Assembly: GCA_027335965.1 (NCBI GenBank)
Contig: DAHWGZ010000008.1
Coordinates: 1 to 25,825 of the forward strand
DNA from: Acidiferrobacter sp.
GTDB taxonomy: Bacteria; Pseudomonadota; Gammaproteobacteria; Acidiferrobacterales; Acidiferrobacteraceae
Direction: 5' to 3'
Length of the DNA: 25,825 nucleotides
This document shows, piece by piece, positions 7,801 to 25,825 of the stretch (position 1 is its first letter; every line of letters begins with the position of its first letter). Both the position numbers and the translations under genes were made by a program. The notes beneath the pieces are model-generated. The model saw only the letters and a program-made list of their open reading frames with translations. It ran no database searches and had not been told where the DNA came from.

Positions 7801-8222
7801 ACGTAGAAGTCGCGCTTGGGCGAGCCCGCGGGGGCATGGCGCGCCGCCTGAAACCAGGGGTGCTGGTCGGAGGTGTGGTTTATGACGAGCTCGGTGATGA
7901 CCCGCAGCCCCCGCTCATGGGCGGCGCGCACGAATTGCAGGAAATCGCGGCGCGTCCCATAGTCGGGATGGACGTTGCGGTAATCGGCGATGTCATAGCC
8001 GTCGTCGCGCATGGGGGACGGGTAGAAAGGCAGGACCCACAGGGTGTCGACGCCCAGGTCCTGCAGATAATCGAGCTTCTCGGTGAGCCCCGCGAAATCG
8101 CCGATGCCATCGCCATTGCCGTCGAAGAAGGCGCGCACATGCAATTCGTAGATGACCGCGTCCTTGTACCAAAGCGGATCATCCGCTATCTGAGATTCCC
8201 CGCTTTTTGCTCTTCTCTGCAT
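4881..8222 (-). CDS. treS: trehalose synthase-maltokinase fusion (TreS-Mak)
   Basis: A bifunctional enzyme of 1113 residues. The N-terminal part (about 1-560) is a GH13 trehalose synthase that interconverts trehalose and maltose: [20 protein letters not shown] (nucleophile D214), [11 protein letters not shown] (E256), [13 protein letters not shown] (D322) and [12 protein letters not shown]. The C-terminal part (about 650-1113) is a maltokinase of the aminoglycoside-phosphotransferase fold: an N-cap containing [12 protein letters not shown], then [12 protein letters not shown] (catalytic D960) and ITDFEGEP (metal-binding D977). It phosphorylates maltose with ATP and hands maltose-1-phosphate to GlgE. 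The full open frame extends upstream to 8354 inside glgE, but the first TreS-like residues follow ATG 8222, seven nt after the glgE stop. No clear Shine-Dalgarno precedes it, so translational coupling to glgE is likely. This fusion is known in proteobacterial GlgE pathways. Confidence 0.96.
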
Positions 8223-8229
8223 GAATGCC

Positions 8230-10242
8230 CTAGGAGTAGTAATCGAAATCGTGCTCGGTGCCGACATAGCCGCGCGGGCGGAATATGTGCGCCGGCATCT
8301 GCTCAGGCGCGAGTTCCACGTAATGGCGGCCACCGCTCCACAGGTAGCGCGCATCCGACAGCAGGTCGTGCATCTGCACCGCCCGATCGGCGCGCGCGCC
8401 CGGGACCTGCGCCGGCCACTCGATCCATCCGGACTGGCGGTGATGGGGATCGAGATTCACCACCACCAGAATGACCGAGGCGCCATCCTCGGAGGTCTTG
8501 CTGTAGGCGATCAGGTTGTCGTTATCGATGGCGTGGAACACGAGATGGCAATCGGTCTTGAGCGCCGGATGCGCGCGGCGTATGGCGTTGACGCGCGCGA
8601 TGATCGGCTGCAGGCCGTCGGGTCGGGCGACATCCCAGGTACGCCGCTCGTACTTCTCGGAGTCCCGGTACTCCTCGCTGCCCGGCTCGCGCGGCACCGA
8701 CTCCATGAGCTCGAAGGCCGGCCCATAGAGGCCATAGTTGGCGCTCAGGGTCGCGGCCAGCACCAGGCGGGCGATGAACGCCGCGCGCGGCGCATGCTGC
8801 AGATAGGGGGGCAGGATGTCGGGGGTGTTCGGCCAGACGTGGGGCCTAAAATACTCGCGGCCCGGTCCTTGGGTCAGTTCGGTGAAATACGCGATCAGTT
8901 CGTGCTTGCTGTTGCGCCACGTGAAATAGGTATAGGAGTGCGTGAACCCGAGCTTGGCGAGCCTGTGCATCACCTTGGGACGCGTGAAGGCCTCGGCCAG
9001 AAACAGCACATCGGGGTATTCGGCGCGGACCGCGCCTATGAGCCATTCCCAGAAGGCGAAGGTCTTGGTGTGGGGGTTGTCGACCCGGAAGATGCGCACC
9101 CCGGCGTCGATCCAGAACAGCACGATGCCCTTCAGTTCCCGCCAGAGGGCCTGCCAGTCCTCGGTCTCGAAGTCCAGCGGATAGATGTCCTGGTATTTCT
9201 TCGGGGGGTTCTCGGCAAACTGGATGCTGCCGTCCGGGCGATGGCGGAACCACTGCGGATGCTCGCTCACGTACGGATGGTCGGGGGCGCACTGAAAGGC
9301 GATGTCGAGCGCCACGGCAAGCCCGAGCCGCCCGGCCTCGGCGCAGAACGCGCGGAAATCCGCGAACGTGCCCAGGGCTTGGGCGACGGTCTTGTGGCCG
9401 CCCTCGGCGCTGCCGATCGCCCACGGGCTGCCGACATCGGCGGGATCATTGCTTGCGGTATTGTTCGGACCCTTGCGGCGCACGGCCCCGATCGGCGATA
9501 TCGGCGGCAGGTACACGACATCGAATCCCATGGCCGCCACGCGCCCCAGGATCGGGCCGGCATCGCGCAACCGTCCGCCGGCGGCCCCCCAGCGCGAGCG
9601 CGGAAAGAATTCATACCAGGCCGCGGCGCGCGCGCCCTCGGGGTCCACGCGCGCGGGAAGCTCGGGCGCCCACACCGTCTCGTGCGCGGGCTCTGAAAAC
9701 CGGTAAACCCGCTCGGCGAGCGCCTCGTCCAGCAGCGCGGCGCGCTTGTCGGCGACGGACGCCTCGCTCTCGAGCAGCGACCGGATCACGCGCAGCGGGC
9801 GCGCCTCGCGCGCCGGGGCGCGGTCCGCGGCGGCCACGATCAGAAGCACCGCCTGCTGAAAGACCAGGGCGAGGTCCGGGTCGTCGATGGGGCGACGCGC
9901 GAGCTCCTGGGCGAGCGAACCGAACCGGTCGATATGGGCGCGCACCGTGTAGTGATAGACGCCGAGCTCCGCGACCACGAAGCGTCCCTGATAGCGGTCG
10001 TTGCCAAGCGCGGTCATGCGCGTCGCGCTCACCGCGCGGCCGCCGGGCTTGCGCACGCATAACACGCAGGCCACGGCGTCGTGACCGTCGGCAAACACGT
10101 CGGCCTCCACGACCACGGTGTCGCCGATCACGCGCTTGATCGCAAAGCGCCCGCCGTCGACCGCCGGGGTCACGGCCTCGATCACCACCCGGGCCCGGCC
10201 GTCGGCCGGCGGGGGTGGCTCCTTGTTCGGACGCCGCGCCAT
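8230..10242 (-). CDS. glgE: alpha-1,4-glucan:maltose-1-phosphate maltosyltransferase GlgE
   Basis: Transfers maltosyl units from maltose-1-phosphate to the non-reducing ends of alpha-1,4-glucan, the polymerising step of the GlgE pathway (GH13 subfamily 3). The 670-residue product has an N-terminal beta-sandwich and helical region (about 1-190), then [24 protein letters not shown], the diagnostic FRVDNPHTK with nucleophile D388, [10 protein letters not shown] with acid/base E417, and NTPDIL. These match GlgE, where the VDNPHTK motif separates it from amylases. The open frame continues 53 codons upstream, but that part overlaps glgB; ATG 10242 lies one nt after the glgB stop (TAG-C-ATG), so coupling with glgB is expected. 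The following gene, treS-mak, makes its substrate. The call is firm. Confidence 0.97.
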
Positions 10243-10243
10243 G

Positions 10244-12190
10244 CTAGCCGTCCGATCCCGGCCGCGCCGGGGCCTTGAGCACGAGCACCGAAAGGGGCGG
10301 CAGCACGAGATTGAGCGACTGCAGCGCGCCATGCGCCGCCACCGGGGCCGTGGCGAGCCCGCCCAAGTTGCCCTGCCCGCTGCCGCCGTAGATCGTGGCA
10401 TCGGTGTTCAGGACCTCGCGCCAGAGGCCCGGCCGCATCACCCCGAGGCGATAGTTGTGGCGCGGCAGGGGCGTGAAATTGGCGACCACCAGCAAGGGCT
10501 CGCCCGCGGGTTCGGCGAGGCGGTAGAAGCTGATGACGCTCTGCTCCCAATCCCCGGTGTCCACCCAGCAAAAGCCCGCCGGCTCGGCGTCGGCCCGGTG
10601 CAGCGCGGGCTCCCCGCGGTACAGGGCGTTCAGCTCGCGCACCAGCCGCTGGATGCCGCGGTGCGGCTCATGATCGAGAAGATGCCAGTCGAGGCTGTCT
10701 TCGTGGGCCCACTCCCGCCACTGGGCGAACTCCGAGCCCATGAACAGGAGCTTCTTGCCGGGATGACAAAACATGTAGGCGAACAGCACGCGCAGATTGG
10801 CGAACCGCTGCCAGTCGTCGCCCGGCATCTTGGCGATCAGCGAGCGCTTGCCGTACACCACCTCGTCGTGCGAGAGCGGCAGCACGAAGTTTTCCTGAAA
10901 GGCGTACCACAGGCTGAACGTAAGCTGCCCCTGATGGTACTTGCGGTGGATGGGGTCCTTTTCCATGTAATCGAGCGTGTCATGCATCCAGCCCATATTC
11001 CATTTATAGCCGAACCCGAGCCCCCCGGCATAGACCGGCCGCGACACCTGCGGCCAGGCCGTGGACTCCTCGGCTATGGTCTGTGTGTCGGGATAATGCC
11101 GGTACACGGACTCGTTTAGCTCCTGCAGAAACTGGATCGCCTCGTCATTCTCCCGGCCGCCGTGGGCGTTCGGGATCCACTCCCCCGGCCCGCGCGCGTA
11201 ATCGCGGTAGAGCATCGATGCCACGCCATCGACGCGCAGGCCGTCGATGTGAAACCGATCGAGCCAATAAAGCGCGCTCGAGACCAATATCGAGCGCACC
11301 TCGTGACGACTATAGTTGAACAGGCTCGAGTGCCATTCCGGATGATAGCCGCGCCGCGGATCGGAATGCTCAAAAAGATGCGTGCCGTCGAAAAATCCAA
11401 GGCCATGAACATCCGTCGGAAAGTGCGAGGGGACCCAGTCCAGGATCACGCCGATGCCATGGCGATGGAGGGCATCTATCAGGTACATGAGATCATCGGG
11501 CGCGCCGAAACGCGCGGTGGGCGCGAAATACCCCGTGGTCTGATAGCCCCACGAGCCATAGAAGGGGTGTTCGGTGAGCGGCATGAATTCGACGTGAGTG
11601 AAGCCCATGTCGGCGACATACGATGGCAATTGCGCGGCGAGCTCGCGATAGCTCAGCCACCGCCCGCCGTGCTCGGGGACGCGACGCCAGGACCCGGCGT
11701 GGATCTCGTAGATGCTGACCGGCGCGTTCAGCGCGATGCGCTCGCCGCGGCTTGCCATCCACGCCTCGTCCTGCCAGGCATAAGCGCCATCGCACACCAC
11801 GGAGGCCGTGCGCGGTGGCAGCTCGCCGCGAAACGCGAACGGGTCGGCCTTTTCGACTTCATAGCCGCCATCGCGCGCGACGATGTGATATTTATAGAGC
11901 GCCCCGCGACCGATCCCGGGGATGAACCCCGCCCACAGGCCCGACCCGTCGTCGCGGACTTTGAGCGGATGGGCATCCTTTCGCCATCCGTTAAAATCGC
12001 CGATGACCGACACCGAGCGCGCGTTGGGCGCCCAGACCGCGAAATGCACGCCGGTCTCCGCCGCCACGCGCAACGGATGCGCGCCGAGCTTCTCGTAGAG
12101 CCGCACATGCCGTCCCTCGCGGAAGAGAAAGATGTCCTCCGGGCTGAACCACGCGTCCACACTGCCGCTCGCCCCCCTGCCGCCTGGCAT
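10244..12190 (-). CDS. glgB: 1,4-alpha-glucan branching enzyme GlgB
   Basis: Introduces alpha-1,6 branches into linear glucan made by GlgE or GlgA. The 648-residue product has a CBM48 domain (about 35-130: [23 protein letters not shown]) and a GH13 barrel with [23 protein letters not shown] (nucleophile D321), [15 protein letters not shown] (acid/base E374) and [12 protein letters not shown] (D442). It lacks the roughly 100-residue N1 module of the long GlgB form (E. coli type, about 730 residues), so it is the short form. ATG 12190 has GGGAGG seven nt upstream. It is the first gene of the six-gene minus-strand operon; a promoter lies at 12257-12285. N1 length in other GlgBs affects branch-chain length, so glycogen of this organism may differ in structure (inference). 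Confidence 0.97.
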
Positions 12191-12256
12191 GCACTGCCCT
12201 CCCTTGCCGATTGCCGCGCGCCGGAAACGCGCGGGGTCGCGCTCATTTCTCGAGTC

Positions 12257-12285
12257 ATGTTACGGACCATGTCCGCCCATGACAA
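12257..12285 (-). promoter_or_regulatory. sigma-70-type promoter of the glgB-glgE-treS/mak operon with spacer palindrome
   Basis: On the minus strand, TTGTCA (12285-12280) is followed after exactly 17 nt by TAACAT (12262-12257). These match the -35 consensus at 5 of 6 and the -10 consensus at 4 of 6 positions. Transcription would start near 12250, about 60 nt before the glgB ATG. The spacer contains a perfect inverted repeat, CGGAC-CAT-GTCCG (12263-12275 on the plus strand), a plausible operator. The promoter is predicted from sequence only. Confidence 0.55.
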
Positions 12286-12429
12286 GTAGCGAAACGTCCG
12301 CCGCTCGCCGCGCGCCACGCGGGCCTCTTGCCCCATCGTTCGATGTCCGTAGGATGGTGCACGAGCCCCAATACGGGTCGGCGGCCCCACGCGACCCTTG
12401 AAGCCGCGCGAGGCCCGCCAGGATGGGGC

Positions 12430-12465
12430 GCGCCTTTCGGGCGGCGCTCCGTCCGCCGAAAGCGC
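12430..12465. repeat. bulged inverted repeat upstream of glgP
   Basis: The left arm reads GCGC-c-TTTCGG-g-CGG (12430-12444) and the right arm CCG-CCGAAA-GCGC (12453-12465). This gives 13 complementary pairs with two single-base bulges around an 8-nt centre. It lies 53-88 bp before the candidate glgP promoter, a position suited to an activator or repressor site. It is not an intrinsic terminator, because no gene reads into it with a following T-tract. Confidence 0.4.
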
Positions 12466-12517
12466 CTGCCATTTCCGGCGGTTGTATGATACGAGTTTAA
12501 GGGCGACGCGGTGCTTG

Positions 12518-12533
12518 TGGCATAATAGCTGCA
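12518..12533 (+). promoter_or_regulatory. candidate glgP promoter: extended -10 and/or sigma-54 -24/-12 element
   Basis: The sequence TGGCATAATAGCTGCA can be read in two ways. TGG followed by CATAAT is an extended -10 hexamer with no good -35 upstream. As a sigma-54 promoter, TGGCAT has its GG exactly ten bases from the GC of CTGCA; one base departs from TTGCA in the -12 block. Transcription would start near 12532-12545, leaving a leader of about 45-58 nt before the GTG at 12590. Which reading is right cannot be settled from sequence. Confidence 0.4.
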
Positions 12534-12589
12534 CGCCAGTCCAAGCGAATCAGGTTCACAACGCCAACGATCACATAAAAGGTCATCAC

Positions 12590-15145
12590 GTGCCCGGTAC
12601 CCGCTACCCTCTGGAAGTCCAGCCGCTCATTCCGCAAAGATTGGCGCGCCTCACGGAGCTCGCAGCCGACCTTCTCTACAGCTGGAACCGATCCATCCGC
12701 GCGCTGTTCGTGCGGCTCGATCCCAAGCTCTGGGAACAGTGCGGGCGCAACCCCAAACTCATGCTGCGCCGCGTCTCGCAGGCGCGGCTCGACGAGGCCG
12801 CGGCGGATCCGCTGTTTTTGGAGGAGTACCAGCGCGCCCTATCCATATACGATACCTATCACGCCGTGCGCCTGTCCTCCAAGCGCACGGAGATCGATCG
12901 CGGGACCGATCTCGTCGCCTACTTTTGCGCCGAATTCGGTCTCCATGAGAGCCTGCAGATCTACTCCGGCGGCCTTGGCATACTGGCCGGCGACCACTGC
13001 AAGGCGGCAAGCGACCTCGGCCTTCCGTTCGTGGCCATGGGCCTGCTCTACCGGCAGGGGTACTTCAACCAGACCATCGACGCGCAGGGCAACCAGATCG
13101 TCGGCACGGCACCGGCCTTGCTCGCCGATCTGCCGGTGAGCCCGGTGTACGACGACAAGGGGCAAGAGCTGCGGGTGCAGGTCACCTTTCCCGGGCGCGC
13201 CGTGGCGCTCAAGGTGTGGCGCGTGGCGGCCGGGCGCATCTGTCTTTATCTGCTAGACAGCGATGTCGCGGAGAACAGCAACGCCGACCGCAGCATCACC
13301 TGCCAACTCTATGGCGGCGACCGTGAAACCAGGCTGCGCCAGGAGATCGTCCTTGGCATAGGCGGCGTGCGCGCGCTGCGCGCGCTGGGCCTTGCGCCCA
13401 CCGTCTGGCACATCAATGAAGGCCACCCGGCCTTCCAGATCGTGGAGCGGACCCGCGAACTCACGGCCCAAGGCCTCGATTTCGATAGCGCCCTGGAGGT
13501 GGTGGCGGCCGGCACGGTGTTCACGACCCACACGCCCGTGCCCGCCGGCCATGACATCTTCGATCAGGAGCTGTTCGGGCGCTACCTCGAGCCCTATGTC
13601 GCCGATCTCGGGATCACCCTCGATGAACTGAAGTCCCTGGGATCGAGCCCCATCAGCCAGGGCGGATTCAACATGACCGCGCTGGCGCTGCGCGGATCGC
13701 GCCTGCACAACGGCGTAAGCCGCATTCATGGCGGGGTCGCCTCGCGCATGGAGGCCTACATCTGGCCGCAGATCCCGTGGATGGAAAATCCCGTCGGGTA
13801 TGTGACCAATGGCGTGCATGTGGCGACCTTTCTCGCCCACGAATGGAGCAGCCTGTTCGACGTGCGCTTTGGCAGCGAGTGGCGCAACAAGCTCACCGAG
13901 ACCGACTACTGGGCGCGCATCGACGCCATTCCCGACCACAGCTACTGGAGCGTCCACCAATCCCTGAAGGGCGCGATGCTGGAGACCGTGCACAAGCGCG
14001 TCGCCCGCCAACACCGGCGCAACGGGGCGGGCGAGGGCCTGATCCGGCGGCTCACGCGGCTCCTGGAGCCCGACGCCAAGACGCCGCTCGCCATCGGCTT
14101 TGCGCGGCGCTTCGCGACCTACAAGCGCGCGGGCCTCCTGTTCGAGGACCCCAAGCGCCTTGCGCGGTTGCTGAACGACCCGGATCGGCCGGTGCTGCTG
14201 CTGTTTGCCGGCAAGGCCCACCCGCATGACCATCCGGGCCAAAACCTGATCCGCCTGATCCAGGAGTTCTCGCGCAGCCCGGAATTCGAGGGCAAGGTCA
14301 TCCTCATCGAAGGCTACGATCTGGCGCTCGCCCGCCGGCTCGTGACCGGCGTGGATGTCTGGCTCAATACCCCGGAGTACCCCCTGGAGGCGAGCGGTAC
14401 GTCGGGGCAAAAGGCCGCCATCAACGGCGTCGTGAACCTGAGCGTCCTGGATGGCTGGTGGGGCGAGGGCTACGCCGGCGACAACGGCTGGGGCATCTGT
14501 CCGCACAAGGGCGCGATCGACAACGACCAGCGCACCAGCGAGGAGAGCGCGGAGGTCCTCGATATCCTGGAGCAACAGGTCGTGCCCCTCTACTTCAATG
14601 CCGCGGAGCATGGCTACTCGCGATCCTGGATCTCCATGTCCAAGGCCGCGATGCGGCGCGCCATGCCGGTGTTCAACGCCGAACGCATGGTGCTCGAGTA
14701 CGCGCGCGACTATTACCGCAAGGCCGCCGACCATGCCCGGCGACTCGCCTCCGACGCCGCCGCGGGAGGACGCGCGCTGGCCCGCTGGAAACAGCAGGTG
14801 AGCAGCGCCTGGCCCGGGGTGCGCATCGAACCCGACCACGACATCCCCGAGGCCCTCAAGGTCGGCGAGCCCCTGCGTCTCACCGTGCTCGTCCACGGCA
14901 ACGGTCTGCGCCCGGACGACCTCGTCGTCGAATGCCTGTTCGAGTCCTGCGACGATGCGGGCGAGACCCTGCTGCGCGATCAGGCGCCGTTTGCCGCAGA
15001 CGGCGTCGACGAGAAGGGGCGCCTGATCTTTCGTCTCGATCATGAGCCCCGCACGCCGGGATTCCAGACGCTGCGCATCCGCGCCTACCCCACTCACGCC
15101 CTGCTCGCCCATCGTTTCGAACTCGGCTGCATGGCGTGGTTATGA
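12590..15145 (+). CDS. glgP: alpha-glucan (glycogen) phosphorylase
   Basis: A pyridoxal-phosphate enzyme that removes glucose units from glycogen or maltodextrin ends as glucose-1-phosphate. The 851-residue product matches the length of the shorter alpha-glucan phosphorylase family (TIGR02094 type). Visible motifs include FCAEFGLHESLQIYSGGLG and GDHCKAASDLGLP (about 120-145), WHINEGHPAFQ, VFTTHTPVPAGHD, GYVTNGVHVATF, GFARRFATYKRA, and EASGTSGQKAAINGV with the PLP-binding K608. The usual residue before this lysine is Met; here it is Gln. The chosen start is GTG 12590, preceded by AAAAGGT at a spacing of about 7 nt; the upstream ATG 12398 would add 64 residues unlike the family and read through the promoter. 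It is divergent from glgB and followed by a terminator-like hairpin. Confidence 0.95.
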   Translation: MPGTRYPLEVQPLIPQRLARLTELAADLLYSWNRSIRALFVRLDPKLWEQCGRNPKLMLRRVSQARLDEAAADPLFLEEYQRALSIYDTYHAVRLSSKRTEIDRGTDLVAYFCAEFGLHESLQIYSGGLGILAGDHCKAASDLGLPFVAMGLLYRQGYFNQTIDAQGNQIVGTAPALLADLPVSPVYDDKGQELRVQVTFPGRAVALKVWRVAAGRICLYLLDSDVAENSNADRSITCQLYGGDRETRLRQEIVLGIGGVRALRALGLAPTVWHINEGHPAFQIVERTRELTAQGLDFDSALEVVAAGTVFTTHTPVPAGHDIFDQELFGRYLEPYVADLGITLDELKSLGSSPISQGGFNMTALALRGSRLHNGVSRIHGGVASRMEAYIWPQIPWMENPVGYVTNGVHVATFLAHEWSSLFDVRFGSEWRNKLTETDYWARIDAIPDHSYWSVHQSLKGAMLETVHKRVARQHRRNGAGEGLIRRLTRLLEPDAKTPLAIGFARRFATYKRAGLLFEDPKRLARLLNDPDRPVLLLFAGKAHPHDHPGQNLIRLIQEFSRSPEFEGKVILIEGYDLALARRLVTGVDVWLNTPEYPLEASGTSGQKAAINGVVNLSVLDGWWGEGYAGDNGWGICPHKGAIDNDQRTSEESAEVLDILEQQVVPLYFNAAEHGYSRSWISMSKAAMRRAMPVFNAERMVLEYARDYYRKAADHARRLASDAAAGGRALARWKQQVSSAWPGVRIEPDHDIPEALKVGEPLRLTVLVHGNGLRPDDLVVECLFESCDDAGETLLRDQAPFAADGVDEKGRLIFRLDHEPRTPGFQTLRIRAYPTHALLAHRFELGCMAWL

Positions 15146-15175: not shown

Positions 15176-16534
15176 TCAGGAGGACGTGAGCCAGCGATAG
15201 AGCGTGCGCCGCTCGATCCCGAGGATGCGCGCCGCCGCCCGTTTATTGCCGCGCACGCGCCGCAGGACCTCGCGCACATAGGCGTTCTTGCATTCCTCCA
15301 AGGTCACGAGGTCGCCGGTGCCCATCGGCTCGGGTAATGCCGCGCGCCCCGCTGGACCACGCCCCCGGCCGCCGGACCGGCCCACGCGCTCGGGCAGATC
15401 CAGGGCGCCGATGCGCGGGCCGCGCGCAAACGCCGCCGCCGATTGGACGATATTGCGTAGCTCGCGGACGTTCCCCGGAAAGGCATAGCCGTGGAGCAGA
15501 CCCAGGGCCTCGGTCTCGAAGCCATCCGCGACCCCACCCCTCTCGGCGCGGCACTCGCGCAGGAAGTGCCGCGCCAGGACCGTGATGTCGTCGCAGCGGC
15601 CGGCGAGACCCGGCAGGCTCACGGCCAACACGTCGAGACGGTACAAAAGGTCGTCGCGAAAACGCCCCTGCTCGACCGCGAGCGCGAGGTTTCTATGGGT
15701 GGCGGCGACGATCCGGACATCGACCTGGTGCTCGCGCACCGCCCCCACCGGCCGCATCCACCCGCCCTCCAGGACGCGCAGGAGCTTGGCCTGGGCGCCC
15801 AGGGGCATCTCCCCGATCTCGTCCAAGAACAGGGTCCCGCCGTGGGCGGCGGCAAACAGCCCCTCCCGGCTGCGATTCGCGCCGCTGAAGGCCCCGGCGG
15901 TGTAGCCGAAGAATTCACTCTCCCACAATGACTCGGGTATGCCCCCGCAATTGACGGCCACGAACGGGCCATTGCGGCGCGCGCTCTCGCCATGGATCGC
16001 CCGCGCCGCGAGTTCCTTGCCCGTGCCGCTCGGCCCGCTCAGAAGCACCGGCACCTCGACGCGCGCGGCGCGCACCAGACGCTCGACCAGCACGCGCATG
16101 TCCGCGCCGCAGCCGAGCATGCCGTGAAACCGCAGGATATCCGGCACGGGAAGCCGCGCTTGGGGCGCTCGCGCGCAAGGCGATCCCAGCGCCTCGTGGG
16201 CCTGGACCACGGCCACCGACAAGGCCGCGCCCTCGGCCTGGCGCGGCGCGCAACCCTCCTGATCGCCGAGGGCCGGCGCCTCGAGCCGCGGCGAGAGCAT
16301 CATGAACGCCGGCGGCCGTTTTGCGGCGCGTATCCCCGCGCACAGGGCCATGCTGCCGACCTCCCACCTAAGGCCGCTCACCACCAGGTCCGCGGGCCAG
16401 CGCGGCAAGAGCGCCAAGGCATCATGGGCGCTCGCCACCGCCTGCACCACGGCCCCGGCGCCGGACAGGTCCTCCTTCAGCCGCGTGCGCGCGACATCGC
16501 TATCGTCCACTATCAAGATCTTCGATCCTTGCAT
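15176..16534 (-). CDS. NtrC-family sigma-54-dependent activator with degenerate receiver domain
   Basis: A bacterial enhancer-binding protein of 452 residues. Residues 1-115 resemble a response-regulator receiver: the acidic pair D10-D11 and the switch-position S81 are present, but the phospho-acceptor position holds Gly54 (context DLVVSGL) and no conserved C-terminal Lys is seen. The AAA+ domain (about 135-365) has Walker A GPSGTGKE (167-174), a sigma-54 contact loop GAFSGA (214-219, usually GAFTGA), Walker B GGTLFLDEIGEM, an arginine-finger region FRDDLLYRLD and FPGNVRELRN. The C-terminus is a Fis-type helix-turn-helix (GNKRAAARILGIERRTLYRWL region). ATG 16534 has GGAGGGAGGAGG just upstream. 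No histidine kinase gene is adjacent. The likely target is the divergent sigma-54 promoter at 16715, although glgP could also be one. Confidence 0.92.
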   Translation of the reverse strand: MQGSKILIVDDSDVARTRLKEDLSGAGAVVQAVASAHDALALLPRWPADLVVSGLRWEVGSMALCAGIRAAKRPPAFMMLSPRLEAPALGDQEGCAPRQAEGAALSVAVVQAHEALGSPCARAPQARLPVPDILRFHGMLGCGADMRVLVERLVRAARVEVPVLLSGPSGTGKELAARAIHGESARRNGPFVAVNCGGIPESLWESEFFGYTAGAFSGANRSREGLFAAAHGGTLFLDEIGEMPLGAQAKLLRVLEGGWMRPVGAVREHQVDVRIVAATHRNLALAVEQGRFRDDLLYRLDVLAVSLPGLAGRCDDITVLARHFLRECRAERGGVADGFETEALGLLHGYAFPGNVRELRNIVQSAAAFARGPRIGALDLPERVGRSGGRGRGPAGRAALPEPMGTGDLVTLEECKNAYVREVLRRVRGNKRAAARILGIERRTLYRWLTSS

Positions 16535-16593
16535 GCCTCCTCCCTCCTGATGTCACGAGCATGAGTTGTGGCGCATCGCCTCGGCATTTCCGC

Positions 16594-16618
16594 CGCATGT
16601 GTCGGTTCGACACATGCG
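16594..16618. promoter_or_regulatory. palindromic enhancer (UAS) candidate for the sigma-54 activator
   Basis: Perfect inverted repeat with arms CGCATGTGTCG and CGACACATGCG separated by GTT. Its centre is about 135 bp upstream of the transcription start predicted from the -24/-12 promoter, a typical position for enhancer-binding-protein sites. It is also only about 70 bp upstream of the activator's own start codon, so it could serve autoregulation as well. Confidence 0.65.
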
Positions 16619-16714
16619 CGCCGGAAGGCGCCGTGTCGGGCGCCGCTTGCGCCACCCGCCCCATGACGCGCCCTTGCGCGCTTTTGTCTTTCCACCGGCC
16701 ACCGGCGGGGCGGC

Positions 16715-16730
16715 TGGCACGGGCATTGCA
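16715..16730 (+). promoter_or_regulatory. sigma-54 (-24/-12) promoter of the DUF4168 gene
   Basis: TGGCACGGGCATTGCA matches the consensus TGGCACG-N4-TTGCA at every fixed position, with exactly ten bases between the -24 GG (16716-16717) and the -12 GC (16728-16729). The predicted start near 16741 leaves a leader of about 29 nt before ATG 16770. The divergent NtrC-type gene and the upstream palindrome strongly support the assignment. Confidence 0.85.
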
Positions 16731-16769
16731 TTTTCTGAGCGAACCAATCAATCGAGGAAACACATCACG

Positions 16770-17168
16770 ATGGAGTCATCCCGAACCGCCCTGCGACTCG
16801 CCCTCACGACCGCGATTACGCTGATCTCCGTAAGCGCCTATGCCGCCACCCAGGCCCCAGGCGCGGCAGCCGCACAGATGCCGCCCCCGCCGGCCGCCAC
16901 GGCCATGCCGCGCATCGGCCACGCGACCCTGAAACACTTCGTCACGGCCATTCGTCGGGTATCGCAGATCCGCGCCACATACGCGAAGAAGCTGCAGGCG
17001 ATGAAGGCGAAGCCGGGCGCGGCCCGCGGGATCCAGGTACGCGCGCAGAAGTCCATGATCGCCGCCATCAAGGGCCAGCACCTCACCCTGCCGCAATACA
17101 ACAACCTCGTCCGGCAGGTCGACGCGAGCCCGGCATTGCGCGCGCGCGTCCTGCACATGCTGCACTAG
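16770..17168 (+). CDS. small secreted DUF4168-like protein
   Basis: A 132-residue product with a clear signal peptide: charged N-terminus (R5, R9), hydrophobic core about 10-22 and a likely cleavage after A25 (SAYA before ATQ). A low-complexity Ala/Pro linker (about 26-48) follows, then a helical domain. Its pattern (HFVTAIRRVSQIRATYAKKLQA, then MIAAIKGQHLTLPQYNNLVRQV and a closing ALRARV) resembles DUF4168 (PF13767), whose biochemical role is not established. The mature protein is rich in Lys and Arg. A GAGG lies 12 nt before the ATG, a little far; the open frame continues upstream to 16566, but that part contains the promoter. The gene is monocistronic between a sigma-54 promoter and a strong terminator. 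Family assignment is by eye, so moderate. Confidence 0.8.
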   Translation: MESSRTALRLALTTAITLISVSAYAATQAPGAAAAQMPPPPAATAMPRIGHATLKHFVTAIRRVSQIRATYAKKLQAMKAKPGAARGIQVRAQKSMIAAIKGQHLTLPQYNNLVRQVDASPALRARVLHMLH

Positions 17169-17181
17169 CGGAGTAGAGTCG

Positions 17182-17220
17182 CCCGCCGCGGCGCCCCCCC
17201 GGGCGCCGCGGCGGGTCTTT
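17182..17220 (+). terminator. strong intrinsic terminator after the DUF4168 gene
   Basis: A perfect 15-bp GC-rich stem (CCCGCCGCGGCGCCC and its complement) with a 4-nt C loop, followed by TCTTT, begins 13 nt after the stop codon. It isolates this gene from the convergent acyltransferase gene. Confidence 0.88.
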
Positions 17221-17307
17221 CCTCCCGACCGTCCCGCCTCCGAGAATCGCCGCCCCATCGCGGCGCCCCCGCATCCCGGCCGCGCCCTCCACGCCCCTTT
17301 TCGGGCA

Positions 17308-18564
17308 TCAATCCGATGACGCGGACACCTCGCCCCCAGGGGCCGTCACCCTCTCTCCCAAGGCCCGCGCCATGCGCGCGGCCGGTCGCTCCAGCCCGCG
17401 ATAGGCGATGTCCGCCGTTAACAGCGTGGCCACGAAGGTGCCGGCCAGCAAGGGCGCGAGACTGATCCGTCCATAAAACAGGTGGAGCGCCGCCAACAGC
17501 ACGAGCGGGTGAAAGAGATACAGGCTGTAGGATATGCGCCCCAGATACTGGAACACGCGACGCTCGAGGAACGTCTTGATGGCGGGCTCGTAGGCGATCA
17601 CCACGAGCCCGAGGGCCGCCCCCATCATGGTGGGCCAGTCGTGGACCAGCATGCGGTGATCGCCCAGGGCGGCGAGGGCGCGCGAACCGTAAAAGTAGAG
17701 CGCGAAGGCCAGCACCCCCAGGGTGAATCGCCACCACGGCGACAGCGCGATATAGCGCCTCTTCACCGTGCCCCTGTGACAGGCCAGCAGGGCGCCCAAG
17801 GCAAAGGGCGCGAGATAGTAGACAGTGTCGCTGTAGGCGGTCAGCCCCCCGCCCATGACCGCAGCCGCCCACGACCCGCCCGAGGCCGACGCCACGCTGC
17901 GCACGAAGATGACGGCGGCGGCCAGCACCGCAAAAGGCAGCCATGCCACCATCCATGAGGAGCGGCGCACCCACAGGACGATCAGCGGAAAGATGAGCGA
18001 GATGCGCATCTCCTGCACGAGCGTCCAGATCGTGAAGTCATAGCGATCCGAATTGAAGGCGTCCACGAAACCGGCGTGCTCCCAGAGCGAGCTCGTACTC
18101 GGCGACCAGGACCAGAACTTGTTGATCCACGGACCGAGTCCGCGCATGGGCCCGGCATACAGGAAGGCGGCGCCCAGGATGCCGAGGATCACCGCCCCGG
18201 CATAAGGCAGATAAAGGCGCACCACGCGTTTTTTGAGGTAGGCGCCGTAGCTCAAGCCGCCGCGCTCCCACATGACATAGAGCACATAGCCGCTCAACAC
18301 GAAGAAGAAGACCACGGCCGCGCGGCCCGCCCACGCCAAGCCAAGCGGGGTATAGGACAGCCATCGCAGGGTATGGTAGGCATGCGCGTAGCGGCGGCGG
18401 CCGGCATCGGCCAGAACCAGGACATAGTGCGACAAGACCACCGAGACGGCCGCGAGACCGCGCGTGGCATCCAGTGACCTCACCCGTCCATCCGCCACAC
18501 GAAATCCCCCCGCGTCGTGCCACGCCCGCCCCTTGCCGACGCCAACCCGTATGTAGATACCCAT
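17308..18564 (-). CDS. acyltransferase-3 family membrane protein (OafA/YrhL-like)
   Basis: An integral inner-membrane O-acyltransferase-like protein of about 418 residues with roughly ten hydrophobic segments. The family N-terminus is clear: RVRSLDATRGLAAVSVVLSHY (with the conserved His about 50 residues in), followed by FFFVLSGYVLY and a C-terminal YLGRISYSLYLFHPLVL segment. Such proteins acetylate or otherwise acylate cell-surface sugars (O-antigen, exopolysaccharide, peptidoglycan); the substrate here cannot be told. The start is uncertain: ATG 18564 has GAGG only 3 nt away, while GTG 18498 has a GGGGGG run 6-7 nt upstream and would begin directly at the domain. The longer open frame to 18810 is not coding-like. 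No adjacent surface-polysaccharide genes are present, so it looks like a single-gene unit. Confidence 0.85.
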   Translation of the reverse strand: MGIYIRVGVGKGRAWHDAGGFRVADGRVRSLDATRGLAAVSVVLSHYVLVLADAGRRRYAHAYHTLRWLSYTPLGLAWAGRAAVVFFFVLSGYVLYVMWERGGLSYGAYLKKRVVRLYLPYAGAVILGILGAAFLYAGPMRGLGPWINKFWSWSPSTSSLWEHAGFVDAFNSDRYDFTIWTLVQEMRISLIFPLIVLWVRRSSWMVAWLPFAVLAAAVIFVRSVASASGGSWAAAVMGGGLTAYSDTVYYLAPFALGALLACHRGTVKRRYIALSPWWRFTLGVLAFALYFYGSRALAALGDHRMLVHDWPTMMGAALGLVVIAYEPAIKTFLERRVFQYLGRISYSLYLFHPLVLLAALHLFYGRISLAPLLAGTFVATLLTADIAYRGLERPAARMARALGERVTAPGGEVSASSD

Positions 18565-18836
18565 GCGCCTCAACGGTTCCCGACATCGGCCCGGACCATG
18601 CCGGGGGCGGGATTCCGGAAAACGCGCTCGATACGGCCGGCATGCCCCAAGGCCCTCCGCGGCCGGAGGCTCACGGTAAGTGGGCGCTTCCCCACGGCCC
18701 TGGAATCCGGCGAGGCCATGTCCGCGGCGTCGCGCGCGACGTTGACGGCCCGGGCCGCCTGCGTCTACGCTTGATAAAAACCAAAAAAGCGGCCGCAAGG
18801 GTGCACGCACACGATGCCGGGGGGATGTAAACGGTC
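18565..18836. other. 272-nt divergent intergenic region
   Basis: Separates the acyltransferase gene (minus) from the pseudo-peptidase gene (plus). A weak plus-strand promoter candidate is TTGACG (18742-18747) with TACGCT (18766-18771) at 18-nt spacing. An A-rich stretch (18773-18788) stands out from the GC-rich surroundings. Nothing stronger was found. Confidence 0.3.
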
Positions 18837-21373: not shown

Positions 21374-21631
21374 ATGGCCCGCTACACCGTCAGTTCCGCC
21401 TTGCGCGCGCTTTTCCTGTTCGCCGCCTGCGCACCATGGACCGGCATCGCGCTCACCGGTTTTCGCGTCGTGAGCCAAGTGCTCTATGTGCCGGCCGCGT
21501 TCTTCTCGTTCGCGGCGATCACAGTCCCCTGTCCGGGCCTCATCCTGACGCGCCGGCTCTTTCCGGAAAAGCGCTACAACACGGCCTGCACCGGGGCGCG
21601 ACGCCCCGCTCTTGCGCGCGGGAGGCCTTAA
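21374..21631 (+). CDS. small hypothetical membrane protein
   Basis: An 85-residue product, not recognised. It has two probable membrane segments (about 7-30 and 36-60), then a basic, Arg-rich tail (LTRRLFPEKRYN and beyond). GGAGGAG lies directly before ATG 21374, and third codon positions are strongly G/C like the neighbours, so it is probably translated. Its TAA (21629-21631) overlaps the TAA of the convergent malQ gene within a shared TTAA. It is separated from the repeat-protein gene by 156 nt without a clear promoter or terminator. Confidence 0.6.
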   Translation: MARYTVSSALRALFLFAACAPWTGIALTGFRVVSQVLYVPAAFFSFAAITVPCPGLILTRRLFPEKRYNTACTGARRPALARGRP

Positions 21632-23118
21632 CGGGGCAACACCGCGCGGCCGTACAGGAAGGCGAGCCGCGCCAGGCGCGCGGGCACGGCCTCCGCGACA
21701 TCCTCCCAACGAAACCGGAATCCCCAATTGCCGGCCGACTTCCCTGGGGTGTTCATGCGCGCGCCACTGCCAAGATTCAGCACATCCTGCCAGGGGACCA
21801 CGGCAAGACCGGCCACCGAGGAGATGACCGCGCGCATCATGGCCCACGCAGGCTCCGCCTCGACCTCCGGCAGATAGTCGCGCACGAGGGCGCGCTCGGA
21901 CGCCGACAGCGCCGCGTGCCAGCCGGTGGTGGTGTCGTTGTCGTGCGTGCCGGTGTAGGCCACGCCATTGGCGACGTAATTGTGCGGGAGATGCGGATTG
22001 CCCGGATCGCCGTCGAAGCCAAATTGCAGGACGCGCATGCCCGGCAGGTCGTAGCGGTCGCGCAAGGCATGGACATCGTCTGTGATGACGCCGAGGTCCT
22101 CGGCGATCAAGGGGAGATCCCCGAAGGCCTCCTGCAGCGCGCCGAGCAGGGCGTCTCCGGGCACCGCCATCCATTCCCCGCCGGCCGCGGTCGGCGCCGA
22201 GGCCGGGATCGCCCACGAGGCGACGAAGCCGCGGAAATGGTCTATTCGCAACCAATCGAAGAGTTCGCGCTGGGCGCGCACCCGCTCGCGCCACCACGCA
22301 AAGCCGTCGGCGGCCATGCGCTCCCACCGGTAATGCGGGTTCCCCCAGCGCTGGCCCTGCGCCGAGAAATAATCGGGCGGCACGCCGGTGACGATCTCCG
22401 GACGCCCATCGGCATCCAGCACGAAGAGATCGCGATGCGCCCACACATCGGCGCTGTCCTCGGCCACGAAGATCGGCATGTCCCCAAAAAACCGCAGGCC
22501 GCGCGGGGCGGCATAGCGGCGCAACGCGTGCCACTGCCGAAAAAACAGGAACTGCGCGAACGCCGCCGCCTCGAACGGCGCGGATCCCGGATAGGCCGCC
22601 AGCGCCTGCGGGTCGCGATCCTTGAGGGCCGCCGGCCACTGCCACCAGGGCGCGCCGCCGCATTCGGCCTTGATGCATTCGTAGGCGCAGTAATCGGCGA
22701 GCCAAGCCGCGTGCCGCGCGCGGAATTCCTGGAACTCGGCCCGCTCGGCGGCCGACGCCCGCGCGACGAACCCTTGATGGGCGGCGCCCAGCACCGCCCT
22801 TTGCGCGGCCTCGTCGCTCAAAGCCGCGTGCGCATCGGCCATGCCGATCCAGCCGCACGAGGCGAGATCCTCGAGGTCTATGAGCCCGGCATCGCCGGCA
22901 TGCGACGACGGGCTATTGTAGGGCGAGCCTCCGCCCGGCGGACCGAGGGGCAGGACCTGCCAGACGCTCACCCCGGCCGCCACCAGGACGTCCACGAAAC
23001 GCCGCGCATGCGCGCCCATCGTGCCCTTGAGCCCGTCCCCAGGGAGGGAACTCGGATGCAGCAAGACGCCCAGGCGGCGGCGATCGAGGACCGGCGCGTG
23101 ACGCCGCTTGCCCGTCAT
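21628..23118 (-). CDS. malQ: 4-alpha-glucanotransferase (amylomaltase) MalQ
   Basis: Transfers alpha-1,4-glucan segments between malto-oligosaccharides, recycling short chains (GH77). The 496-residue product has the family start LGVLLHPSSLPG, then WQVLPLGPPGGGSPYNSPS, FFGDMPIFVAEDSADVW, WLRIDHFRGF (nucleophile D293), PLIAEDLGV (acid/base E340) and GTHDNDTTTGWH (D393), ending with the WQDVLNLG and MNTPG motifs. The open frame extends to 23325 inside the upstream gene; ATG 23118 is preferred because it overlaps that gene's stop as ATGA, a standard coupling junction. It is the last gene of the glgC-GH57-malQ operon. Confidence 0.96.
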   Translation of the reverse strand: MTGKRRHAPVLDRRRLGVLLHPSSLPGDGLKGTMGAHARRFVDVLVAAGVSVWQVLPLGPPGGGSPYNSPSSHAGDAGLIDLEDLASCGWIGMADAHAALSDEAAQRAVLGAAHQGFVARASAAERAEFQEFRARHAAWLADYCAYECIKAECGGAPWWQWPAALKDRDPQALAAYPGSAPFEAAAFAQFLFFRQWHALRRYAAPRGLRFFGDMPIFVAEDSADVWAHRDLFVLDADGRPEIVTGVPPDYFSAQGQRWGNPHYRWERMAADGFAWWRERVRAQRELFDWLRIDHFRGFVASWAIPASAPTAAGGEWMAVPGDALLGALQEAFGDLPLIAEDLGVITDDVHALRDRYDLPGMRVLQFGFDGDPGNPHLPHNYVANGVAYTGTHDNDTTTGWHAALSASERALVRDYLPEVEAEPAWAMMRAVISSVAGLAVVPWQDVLNLGSGARMNTPGKSAGNWGFRFRWEDVAEAVPARLARLAFLYGRAVLPR

Positions 23119-24815
23119 AGCGCCCCGGACGAGCGCATCGCGCCCCCGCGCTCGGAGCGGTCCGTGCCCTGTTGGGTGAACCCCTCGGCCACGAGCGGCG
23201 AAGGCGGCTCGCCTAGGATGTGGTAGAGGTCGGTGACATGACGGCGGTAGAGTCGCTCGAATCCCTCCACCGCATCGCGCGGGTTGTAGTCGCCGAACCA
23301 CCAGCACCAGTCGGAGCCTTCGCATGCCGCCAGCGCCTCGCTTGCGCGCTCGGCATCCTCGCGCGACAGCCGGCCCTGGGCCATGACGCGGTCATAGTCG
23401 ACCTTCGCCTGGGCGAGGATGTCCCAGGCGCGATTCTTGTCGACGCTGCCGATCCAGGTCGCGAAGGTGCCGTTCACCCAGCTGCCGGCGACGAGCGGCG
23501 GGAGCGTGGCCGGGGCATGGCCTTCATCGATATAGCGAGAGAAGGTCGTGAGCTGGATCTGCGGGTGGCTTGCCAATCGCTCGTAGAGCGCGCGCAGGAA
23601 GTAATACCCGTTCTCGGGGTAATACTCCCAGGCGTTCTCCCCATCCATGATGATGGCGACCAGCGGCACATGACCGGGCTGCGCGGCACGGGCGATGGTC
23701 TCCAGGTGCGAGATCAGGTTGCCGACCGCATCATCGGCATGCCAGTCGGCGTAGGAAAAGCCGATCAGGTCCGACAGCCCGTCGTCGCGGAAGATGCACC
23801 GCACGCTCCGCCCCGGCTCCTCGTAGATCCTGTGACACTGGCCGTGGCTTCCATCCTTGCCGCTCGCCTGCAGGCTATGGCGCAGGACGCGCTCGCCCGA
23901 CGCCGTCCACTTGATGCCGGCGTCGTCAAGCAATGCCAGCATGCGCGCGCTAAGCCCCCCCTCGGCCGGCCAGCAGCCGGCCGCGTTGAATCCGAAATGC
24001 CGCGTGAAGGCCTCCTGGCCCGCCTGGATCTGCCAGCGCGCGCGCTCCTCGCCGCCCGGATAGTGCGGGGCGGCCGGCAGGCGCACGTCCGGCTGCGCCT
24101 CGCGCGCCGCCGCGAAATCGAGCAAAAGCGGCACGATCGGATGTGTATGGGGAGTGAACGACAACTCCACCTGCCCGCTCTCGGCGAGCCTGCGGTAGCG
24201 CGGCACAAGCCCGCTCAGGATCTCGCCCGCCACCTCCAGCACGGTGATCGCCGACCCTTCGTCGAAATCCTCGCCCTTTTGCAAAAGCGCGCCTATGCGC
24301 GCATCGGTGCGGCGCACCGTCTCGCCGAACCACCCCAGGTGGTACCAAATGACGAGATCGCGCAGATAACGATCGCCGAGGTAATGGGAAAGCCCCGGAT
24401 CGGCGACCACCGGCTCGGCGAGCGCCACCAGCCGCTTGAACTCCGGGAACCGATCGATCACGCGCGTCTTGTTGGCCTTGAGGCAGGCCTCGATGAGCGA
24501 TGCGCGCTCGGGGCCGGGCGGCGGCCAGTGGCCGGCAAGCGCCGCGAGCAGCGGGTCGCGCAGGGGCGTGCGCTCGCGGAGATAGGCCTGCACCTGCTCG
24601 CCATAGTCAGCGATCTGATCGAGCAGGACGGGCGAGAAATTGACCACCGCGCGCGATGCCGGGACCGACTCGATGTGCGCCGCCATATCCACATAGTCCT
24701 TGATGGCATGCAGATACACCCATGGCTGCTGGTACTGGCCGTCGGACAGGCGCCGGTATTGCGGCTGATGCATGTGCCAGCACAACACCAGGTTCAAGCG
24801 GCCCTCATCGGACAT
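23115..24815 (-). CDS. glycoside hydrolase family 57 protein (alpha-glucan active)
   Basis: A 566-residue GH57 protein, acting on alpha-glucan as amylase, glucanotransferase or branching enzyme; the exact activity cannot be told from sequence. It begins with the family signature LVLCWHMHQPQYR. The catalytic nucleophile is E285 in CWPAEGGLS, and the acid/base is D391 in IIMDGENAWEYYPENG. A FTPHTHPIVPLL motif (about 215-230) and a C-terminal helical region with WCWWFGDYN complete the family pattern. It starts inside the end of glgC (11-nt overlap; AGGAA 8 nt upstream) and overlaps malQ by 4 nt, so the three genes are translationally coupled. The final 30 or so residues are low-complexity. Confidence 0.92.
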   Translation of the reverse strand: MSDEGRLNLVLCWHMHQPQYRRLSDGQYQQPWVYLHAIKDYVDMAAHIESVPASRAVVNFSPVLLDQIADYGEQVQAYLRERTPLRDPLLAALAGHWPPPGPERASLIEACLKANKTRVIDRFPEFKRLVALAEPVVADPGLSHYLGDRYLRDLVIWYHLGWFGETVRRTDARIGALLQKGEDFDEGSAITVLEVAGEILSGLVPRYRRLAESGQVELSFTPHTHPIVPLLLDFAAAREAQPDVRLPAAPHYPGGEERARWQIQAGQEAFTRHFGFNAAGCWPAEGGLSARMLALLDDAGIKWTASGERVLRHSLQASGKDGSHGQCHRIYEEPGRSVRCIFRDDGLSDLIGFSYADWHADDAVGNLISHLETIARAAQPGHVPLVAIIMDGENAWEYYPENGYYFLRALYERLASHPQIQLTTFSRYIDEGHAPATLPPLVAGSWVNGTFATWIGSVDKNRAWDILAQAKVDYDRVMAQGRLSREDAERASEALAACEGSDWCWWFGDYNPRDAVEGFERLYRRHVTDLYHILGEPPSPLVAEGFTQQGTDRSERGGAMRSSGAL

Positions 24816-25825
24816 GATGCAGTTCCTGGCCGAGCATCTCGGGCGTCACCACGACGACCCCCTCGGGCGTCACATGATAACGGCGCGCGTCGTCCTCGGG
24901 ATCCCACCCTATGATGCTGCCCTCGGGTATGCGGCACCCCTTATCGATGATCGCGCGACGGATGCGGCTATGCCGGCCGATGTCGACGCTGCCCATGACC
25001 ACCGAGTCTACGACCTCCGAATAGGAATGCGCATGCACCGCCGAAAACAACAGCGAATGGCGGATCTGGGCCCCGGAGATCACGCAGCCGCCGGACACCA
25101 TGGAGTCCACGGCCATGCCGCGGCGGCCCTCGTCCTCGTCGAAGATGAACTTGGCCGGCGGATACTGCTCCTGATAGGTCCAGATCGGCCAGGAGGTGTC
25201 ATAGAGGTTGAGCTCCGGGGTCACGCCGATCAGCTCCATGTTGGCCTCCCAATAGGCATCCAGCGTGCCGACATCGCGCCAGTAGGCCGATTGCCCGCTG
25301 CCATCGCCCGAAAAGGCATAGGCCATGACCCGGTACCGATCTATGGCCCCGGGGATCACGTTGTGCCCGAAATCGTGCCGCGAGGCCTTGGTGTCGGCAT
25401 CCTTGACGAGCTGCTCATAGAGGAAGCGCGCGCTAAACACATAAATGCCCATGGAAGCGAGCGCGGTGTTCCCGCCCGCCACCGCTGGCGCCGGCTCGGC
25501 CGGCTTTTCATCGAAGCGCACGATGCGCCCCATCTCATCCGTGGCCATGACCCCAAAGTCGCTTGCGCGATCGAGGGGAACATGCACGCAACCGACCGTG
25601 AGGTCCGCGCCCTTGCGCACATGATGGGCGATCATCGGCCCGTAATCCATCTTGTAGACATGGTCGCCGGCCAGGATCAGGACGTAATCCGGGTCATGAT
25701 TGCGCACGATATCGAGGTTCTGGTAGACCGCGTCGGCGGTCCCCGCGTACCACGAGGACTCGATGCGCTGCTGTGCCGGCAGGAGTTCCACGAACTCCCC
25801 GAAATCCCCGCGCAAGGTCCCCCAG
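24805..25825 (-). CDS. glgC: glucose-1-phosphate adenylyltransferase GlgC (5' end outside window)
   Basis: Makes ADP-glucose from glucose-1-phosphate and ATP, the committed step of classical glycogen synthesis. The frame is open to the right edge; the visible part begins with WGTLRGDFGEFV and lacks roughly the first 80 residues (the nucleotide-binding start). Family motifs are clear: LLPAQQR, WYAGTADAVYQNLDI, LAGDHVYKMDY, FDEKPAEP, ASMGIYVF, YWRDVGTLDAYWEANM, and the left-handed beta-helix region with VSGGCVISGAQI and IPEGSIIGWDPEDDARRY. It is the first visible gene of the glgC-GH57-malQ operon. No glgA is in the window, so the glycogen synthase partner must be elsewhere, possibly upstream. 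The TTG at 25815 is internal, not the start. Confidence 0.97.
   Translation of the reverse strand, partial: WGTLRGDFGEFVELLPAQQRIESSWYAGTADAVYQNLDIVRNHDPDYVLILAGDHVYKMDYGPMIAHHVRKGADLTVGCVHVPLDRASDFGVMATDEMGRIVRFDEKPAEPAPAVAGGNTALASMGIYVFSARFLYEQLVKDADTKASRHDFGHNVIPGAIDRYRVMAYAFSGDGSGQSAYWRDVGTLDAYWEANMELIGVTPELNLYDTSWPIWTYQEQYPPAKFIFDEDEGRRGMAVDSMVSGGCVISGAQIRHSLLFSAVHAHSYSEVVDSVVMGSVDIGRHSRIRRAIIDKGCRIPEGSIIGWDPEDDARRYHVTPEGVVVVTPEMLGQELHHVR

Follow-up and report, generated by a model that had tools for sequence, protein, structure and literature searches.

A putative sigma-54 control system for a DUF4168 exported protein in Acidiferrobacter, with kinase-linked relatives in distant Gammaproteobacteria

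In a 25,825-nucleotide stretch of an Acidiferrobacter sp. genome (GenBank assembly GCA_027335965.1, contig DAHWGZ010000008.1; hereafter the window), a small gene for an exported DUF4168 protein and a gene for an NtrC-family activator are divergently oriented, with a perfect palindrome and a -24/-12 promoter between them. We propose that the palindrome is the enhancer of the divergent activator, that the DUF4168 gene is under sigma-54 control, and that the module has a kinase-linked ancestry, and we put the probability of this whole explanation at about 0.82. Since distantly related bacteria have the same switch, in most cases together with a sensor kinase, the arrangement looks like a real, apparently undescribed cell-envelope control system. 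The parts of the module are as follows.

15176 to 16534, minus strand: gene for the NtrC-family sigma-54 activator (452 amino acids), with a degenerate receiver, an AAA+ domain with a GAFSGA loop, and a Fis-type helix-turn-helix (HTH), from Pfam matches and motifs.
16373 to 16375, minus strand: codon of Gly54 in VVSGL, at the phospho-acceptor Asp position of relatives, from alignments, the codon position being counted.
16594 to 16618, no strand: palindrome, operator and predicted enhancer, CGCATGTGTCG-GTT-CGACACATGCG, with arms of 11 nt, a spacer of 3 and 100% complementarity.
16715 to 16730, plus strand: -24/-12 sigma-54 promoter, TGGCACGGGCATTGCA, with 0 mismatches to the consensus.
16754 to 16759, plus strand: likely ribosome-binding site, GAGGAA, read from the sequence, 10 nt 5' of the ATG.
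16770 to 17168, plus strand: gene for the DUF4168 exported protein (132 amino acids; Pfam PF13767, 1.3e-13), the signal peptide being judged by eye.
17182 to 17215, plus strand: G+C-rich hairpin with a weak T tract, a probable terminator, from folding and missing from the terminator scan.

A first-pass annotation had described a sigma-54 unit consisting of a perfect palindrome with 11-bp arms, a consensus-perfect promoter about 110 bp further on, a divergent activator and a DUF4168 target, and each of these parts was confirmed. With up to three mismatches allowed, no second copy of the palindrome occurred in the window (none in 100 shuffles), and the promoter was the single zero-mismatch -24/-12 site there, with a score that none of 4000 random stretches drawn from related loci reached. 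The palindrome centre lies 109 bp from the start of the -24 element and 72 bp upstream of the activator start codon, and the -24 element is 55 bp from the ATG of the target gene. No sigma-70-like site was found in a scan of 16450 to 17330. The target protein matched DUF4168 with 52.2 bits, over the gathering cut-off of 25.8, and no other Pfam family at an E value of 0.1; its N-terminus resembles, by eye, a Sec signal peptide ending in AYA-A. The fold model was helical and gave no significant fold match. The hairpin downstream of the gene (15 pairs; -49.4 kcal/mol for the region, z -6.5) is as strong as had been claimed. Because its T tract is weak (TCTTTCC) and a terminator scan did not list it, it is a likely, unproven terminator.

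Relatives were sought in 369 Gammaproteobacteria genomes (G numbers below denote genomes, and L numbers loci), with up to 11 candidates per genome scored in the DUF4168 searches and up to 21 in the operator-model search; the DUF4168 gene counts are lower bounds. The window protein as query gave matches in 28 of the 369 genomes, and a profile of 17 DUF4168 sequences gave at least 53 genes in 34 genomes at an E value of 1e-6 or better. The surroundings of all 53 genes were examined. Regulators of the activator group (at least 294 bits, with a clear gap to the remaining matches at 257.5 bits or less) were present in 14 of these 34 genomes, and in 11 of the 14 the activator and a DUF4168 gene were no more than about 4 kb apart; in G279 the two were not near each other. 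DUF4168 was absent from the fetched flanks (up to 5 kb) of all 80 control loci, i.e., the 80 best regulator-match loci (788,971 bp), among them at least four from Halomonadaceae (L001, L002, L004, and L005), the L001 and L002 activators belonging to the same group. The check proposed in the first-pass annotation, a search of other genomes for the activator beside DUF4168 with the same palindrome, was thus positive, and the window palindrome matches the operator conserved in them. Palindrome and promoter were conserved in these distant relatives, contrary to the outcome that the annotation had named as refuting. The closest protein relatives were Acidiferrobacter-like (88% to A. thiooxydans). 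Because the DUF4168 and regulator relatives have four longest contigs in common (99646, 16016, 4099, and 106328 bases), the pair probably stays together across the Acidiferrobacter genus, on what are probably shared contigs.

The promoter was conserved along with this linkage. We scanned the 160 bases 5' of each gene start with weights set by hand from the consensus, taking p values from 4000 random stretches of the same loci and a cut-off of p 0.0105. In the automatic scan, 11 of 13 DUF4168 genes close to the activator (the window counted) had a -24/-12 site, versus 6 of 41 others (Fisher 8e-6). The others include Halomonas L100, whose regulator is 9.6 kb away, L116, with a weak partial regulator at a distance of 6.6 kb, and loci ending at contig ends (e.g., L175, 3554 bases), where an activator is possibly out of view. 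Two hand corrections brought the figure for genes near the activator to 13 of 13 (p 2e-8): in L163 the gene start was misplaced, and TGGCACGATGCCTGCT at 7678 is the promoter; in L171 a Gly-rich exported open reading frame (ORF) precedes DUF4168 and has the promoter, TGGCATGCCCGTTGCT at 8960, on its 5' side. Three of the six distant sites (L117, L164, and L170) belong to extra DUF4168 copies in activator-bearing genomes (G131 and G295). G295 itself holds five DUF4168 genes (in L109, L164, L170, and L152), of which four have -24/-12-like sites within the p 0.0105 cut-off. Separately, the DUF4168 genes of L175, L148, and L149, whose genomes lack the activator group, share a near-identical promoter-like site, TGGCAYGATCGATGCN, about 85 to 95 bp 5' of the start used; these sites are perhaps under another activator.

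The activator protein itself matched Sigma54_activat (1e-62) and, over the Pfam cut-offs, AAA_lid_14 and HTH_8 (33.9 bits, cut-off 22), as expected for an NtrC-family protein, and carries the motifs GPSGTGKE (Walker A), LFLDE (Walker B) and GAFSGA. The GAFSGA loop was present in 15 of 16 Acidiferrobacter-type regulators, and it is listed among activation-compatible variants of the GAFTGA-type loop in the part of PMC4641369 available to us. In contrast, the Response_reg match fell under the cut-off. The phospho-acceptor Asp is replaced by Gly, unlike in a phospho-regulated response regulator. The same SGL was found in 14 of the 16 Acidiferrobacter-type regulators; of the other two, P0026 has no receiver, and P0024 has an intact NtrC-like one. 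P0024 is encoded on a 4368-base contig, which is possibly a chimeric assembly, the protein otherwise being an early-branching form.

Elsewhere the regulator has a partner. A histidine kinase gene adjoined it in 10 of the 11 genomes in which activator and DUF4168 stand together (L102 to L106, L109, L112, L165, L163, and L171), with the acceptor Asp intact, and a kinase was also found beside the regulator in L252 and in the Halomonadaceae loci. Nine relatives' kinases, 32 to 50% identical to each other, gave no match in the window or in L107 (G026), where the acceptor position reads NGL. The divergent order of activator and DUF4168 is seen in the window and L107, and also in the kinase-bearing L109, L112, and L171. 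All 14 other regulators from the loci that have a receiver in our tree, outgroups excluded, keep the acceptor Asp. The tree (midpoint root, several forks open) set the Acidiferrobacter group (support 100/99) apart from G026; if it is right, the acceptor Asp would therefore have been lost at least twice, in the Acidiferrobacter lineage and in G026. A second, receiver-less activator copy (345 amino acids, L253:7989-9026) occurs in G167 and groups with its full-length paralogue in the tree.

The module would thus not be an isolated unit, the parts given in the first-pass annotation being right and the whole being a derived form of a two-component system; the activator was likewise correctly named there, with its nature as a degenerate response regulator left unmentioned. 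We suggest that it derives from a histidine kinase, response regulator and envelope protein system of Gammaproteobacteria. Because the locus has no kinase and the receiver is predicted to be unable to take phosphate in the usual way, the activator is probably one-component or constitutive in the window lineage. It could instead still answer a kinase encoded elsewhere, through another phospho-site or a phosphate-independent contact. The cognate membrane kinases of relatives would fit this (HisKA and HATPase in 7 of 7 scanned, HAMP in 6 of 7, the sensor matches differing), as would the two leading Asp residues retained in the activator receiver, and the kinase search covered the window only, which leaves room for a distant kinase. 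However, the window activator and its close relatives lack the Thr-Lys-Pro motif as well as the acceptor Asp, and P0026 (335 amino acids) has no receiver in its listed sequence, so that we regard continued kinase control as unlikely.

A shared operator ties the promoters to the activator. Among 4-mer dyads enumerated over the 260 bases 5' of 18 promoters, TGTG-N9-CACA came out on top (5 of 18, p 3.5e-8), a result equalled by none of 300 random stretch sets. The operator consensus was CnCATGTGTCAnnnTGACACATGnG, of which the window palindrome is a near-perfect copy. Eight sites for a matrix were chosen by eye among the 18 upstream regions before a leave-one-out test, in which each matrix locus was dropped in turn (L102 and L103 jointly). 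The held-out operator came first in its locus in seven of the eight cases and second in L103, and with a matrix built without it the window operator ranked 1 of 25801 positions. Because the matrix sites were chosen by eye, loci outside the set give cleaner evidence: the operator ranked first in L109, and the best scores were 18.5 in L163, 23.7 in L171, 20.3 in L252, and 24.4 in L106 (with the site in front of the kinase gene rather than DUF4168), versus a best of 15.0 among the control loci. In all, of the 13 activator-proximal DUF4168 genes, 11 have the operator upstream, and 1 of 35 DUF4168 loci with no nearby activator (L150, G167) scored above 15. Operator centres lie 72 to 109 bp 5' of the -24 element, and 183 bp in L104. 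In L102, L103, L105, L107, L112, and L163, a weaker operator match stands 17 bp from the main site, suggesting a three-half-site array.

In the mechanism we propose, an activator dimer would bind the palindrome at 16594 to 16618 through its Fis-type HTH, hexamers would form, about 110 bp of DNA would be looped out, and the AAA+ ring would remodel sigma-54 RNA polymerase at 16715 to 16730, leading to transcription of the exported, helical DUF4168 protein, which is probably a small periplasmic accessory or stress protein resembling ZraP. In five loci (L102, L103, L104, L165, and L106), the kinase gene has an operator copy right at its beginning, suggesting that the system controls its own expression; by the same token, the window operator may control the activator gene too. 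No convincing sigma-54 promoter follows these kinase-gene copies (the promoter-like site of L102 stands 176 bp upstream instead), which would fit repression there, and the window operator centre is nearer to the activator start codon (72 bp) than to the promoter (109 bp). The palindrome might then mainly repress the activator gene, or bind another regulator, with the -24/-12 site served by a different enhancer-binding protein. We consider this improbable, since the operator also precedes DUF4168 promoters at loci in which activator and DUF4168 genes share a strand (L102, L103, L104, L105, and L165), and in L252 it precedes the promoter of an acyltransferase gene. A chance palindrome and a chance promoter beside an unrelated regulator can be dismissed as scarcely credible: the G+C-rich window does yield palindromes (3 with arms of at least 11 and gaps of up to 12, against a mean of 0.4 and a maximum of 1 in 20 first-order shuffles) and weak promoter-like sites (8 observed at up to two mismatches versus 4.2 expected), but the association and motif tests and the conservation of palindrome and promoter in distant genomes contradict it.

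Several observations weigh against enhancer-dependent control of DUF4168 by this activator. Promoter-like sites were found in L173, L175, and L149, and we read these as chance or as other activators' sites because the genomes have no member of the activator group. In G001 and G372, both of the Halomonas type, DUF4168 stands about 10 kb from the regulator with no promoter. The DUF4168 promoters of L106 and of the second L109 gene have no convincing operator, nor was one found at those of L117, L164, and L170, and the Halomonadaceae loci L100, L101, and L254 gave no operator match over the control level. Taken alone, the operator model reached no genome-wide significance inside or outside the module (best E value 0.05), and its matches also fall in genomes with no DUF4168 gene. 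The fold model of the DUF4168 protein was weak, with a predicted local distance difference test score (pLDDT) of 65.

The first-pass annotation had assigned the unit a single target. In some genomes, other envelope genes have the same operator and promoter, their products being small exported-looking proteins with the exception of an acyltransferase. The operator and TGGCATGGCTTTCGCT precede an exported-looking ORF of 94 amino acids with no Pfam match in G167, and an acyltransferase-3 gene of G279 (L252:7317-8351), beside a kinase-regulator pair, has three adjoining operators and TGGCATGTTAGTTGCT in front of it. In the Halomonadaceae, -24/-12-like sites follow operator-like half sites at a distance of about 90 to 100 bp; they are good in L005 (TGGCACAGCCTGTGCT, 0.90) and weak in L002 and L101 (one genome), L004, and L254 (0.75 to 0.80); at a guessed position in L001, none was seen. 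An acidic lipoprotein is encoded behind the site in L254. As a separate observation, in G128 (L220:3999-4449) a small Lys/Ala-rich ORF with no visible signal peptide stands behind an operator-like site and TGGCCCGGTTCTTGCT, flanked by fructose-bisphosphate aldolase-like and ribulose-phosphate epimerase-like genes.

From these comparisons, the interpretation of a sigma-54 regulon that has envelope targets and an operator of its own, present in the window in a kinase-less form, holds up computationally. We further lean, with some reserve, towards a previously undescribed sigma-54 two-component regulon of Gammaproteobacteria with a CATGTGTCA-N3-TGACACATG operator and exported or envelope targets. 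This regulon would have become kinase-independent at least twice (Acidiferrobacter and G026), each time with receiver decay and divergent order. Its targets would, with the same reserve, be mostly DUF4168, along with the Gly-rich exported protein of G243, the 94-amino-acid exported protein of G167, and the acyltransferase of G279, and perhaps also the lipoprotein in Halomonadaceae.

In the window, the module is surrounded by glycogen and maltosyl-transfer genes (4881 to 15145 and 21628 to 25815), with GlgE-type domains, a branching enzyme type, a phosphorylase, GH77, GH57, and a GlgC-like gene. An acyltransferase-3 gene at 17308 to 18810 is convergent to the DUF4168 gene.

The conserved operator, promoter, activator and kinase offer a handle on when the DUF4168 protein is made, and the kinase-linked and kinase-less forms of one regulator make the change from a two-component to an apparently one-component system directly testable. 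The module also assigns the DUF4168 protein to the envelope-related part of sigma-54 biology; PMC3162934 claims in its title that sigma-54 serves the bacterial exterior. A search of the open-access literature, a scope outside which most subscription papers fall, found no paper on DUF4168 or PF13767 (a DUF4142 control gave papers). For Acidiferrobacter together with sigma-54, only nucleoid-protein work turned up among the open-access texts as far as these could be seen, and CACATGTG was not found in open-access papers among the matches listed. The main text of a 2025 sigma-54 regulon survey (PMC12316311) gave neither "DUF" nor Acidiferrobacter in a word search.

The closest known analogue of the module is ZraSR/ZraP, in which, in the portions of the reports that we could consult, a sigma-54 response regulator controls both its own genes and that of a periplasmic chaperone from divergent promoters (PMC4987338, PMC7657598). 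The likeness extends to an NtrC-type regulator, sigma-54 promoters, a divergently encoded small periplasmic protein and kinase-regulator genes under their own control (same sources). ZraSR/ZraP responds to zinc and envelope stress in enterobacteria. In contrast, the window target belongs to a different Pfam family, DUF4168, and the window receiver has no acceptor Asp and no kinase at its locus. The window regulator is not a ZraR, reaching 248.2 of the 760 bits of the ZraR equivalog cut-off. Small enhancer-binding-protein regulons of Desulfovibrio share the GAFSGA variant, according to the part of PMC4641369 consulted; at that level of comparison, they differ in having other regulators in another bacterial group. 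GlrR, for which the accessible part of PMC4987338 names small RNAs (glmY and glmZ) as targets, is also NtrC-type and has a palindromic site with TGTC and GACA, spaced TGTC-N10-GACA there versus TGTC-N5-GACA in the module consensus. Membership in the GlrR regulon fails on this N5 spacing and on the GlrR equivalog score, 276.4 of 763 bits. FleQ, VpsR, and PspF are enhancer-binding proteins that lack the acceptor Asp or the receiver, and resemble the window protein as AAA+ activators with no standard phospho-control. They differ from it in lineage and targets, and the family of the window activator has relatives with an intact receiver and a kinase.
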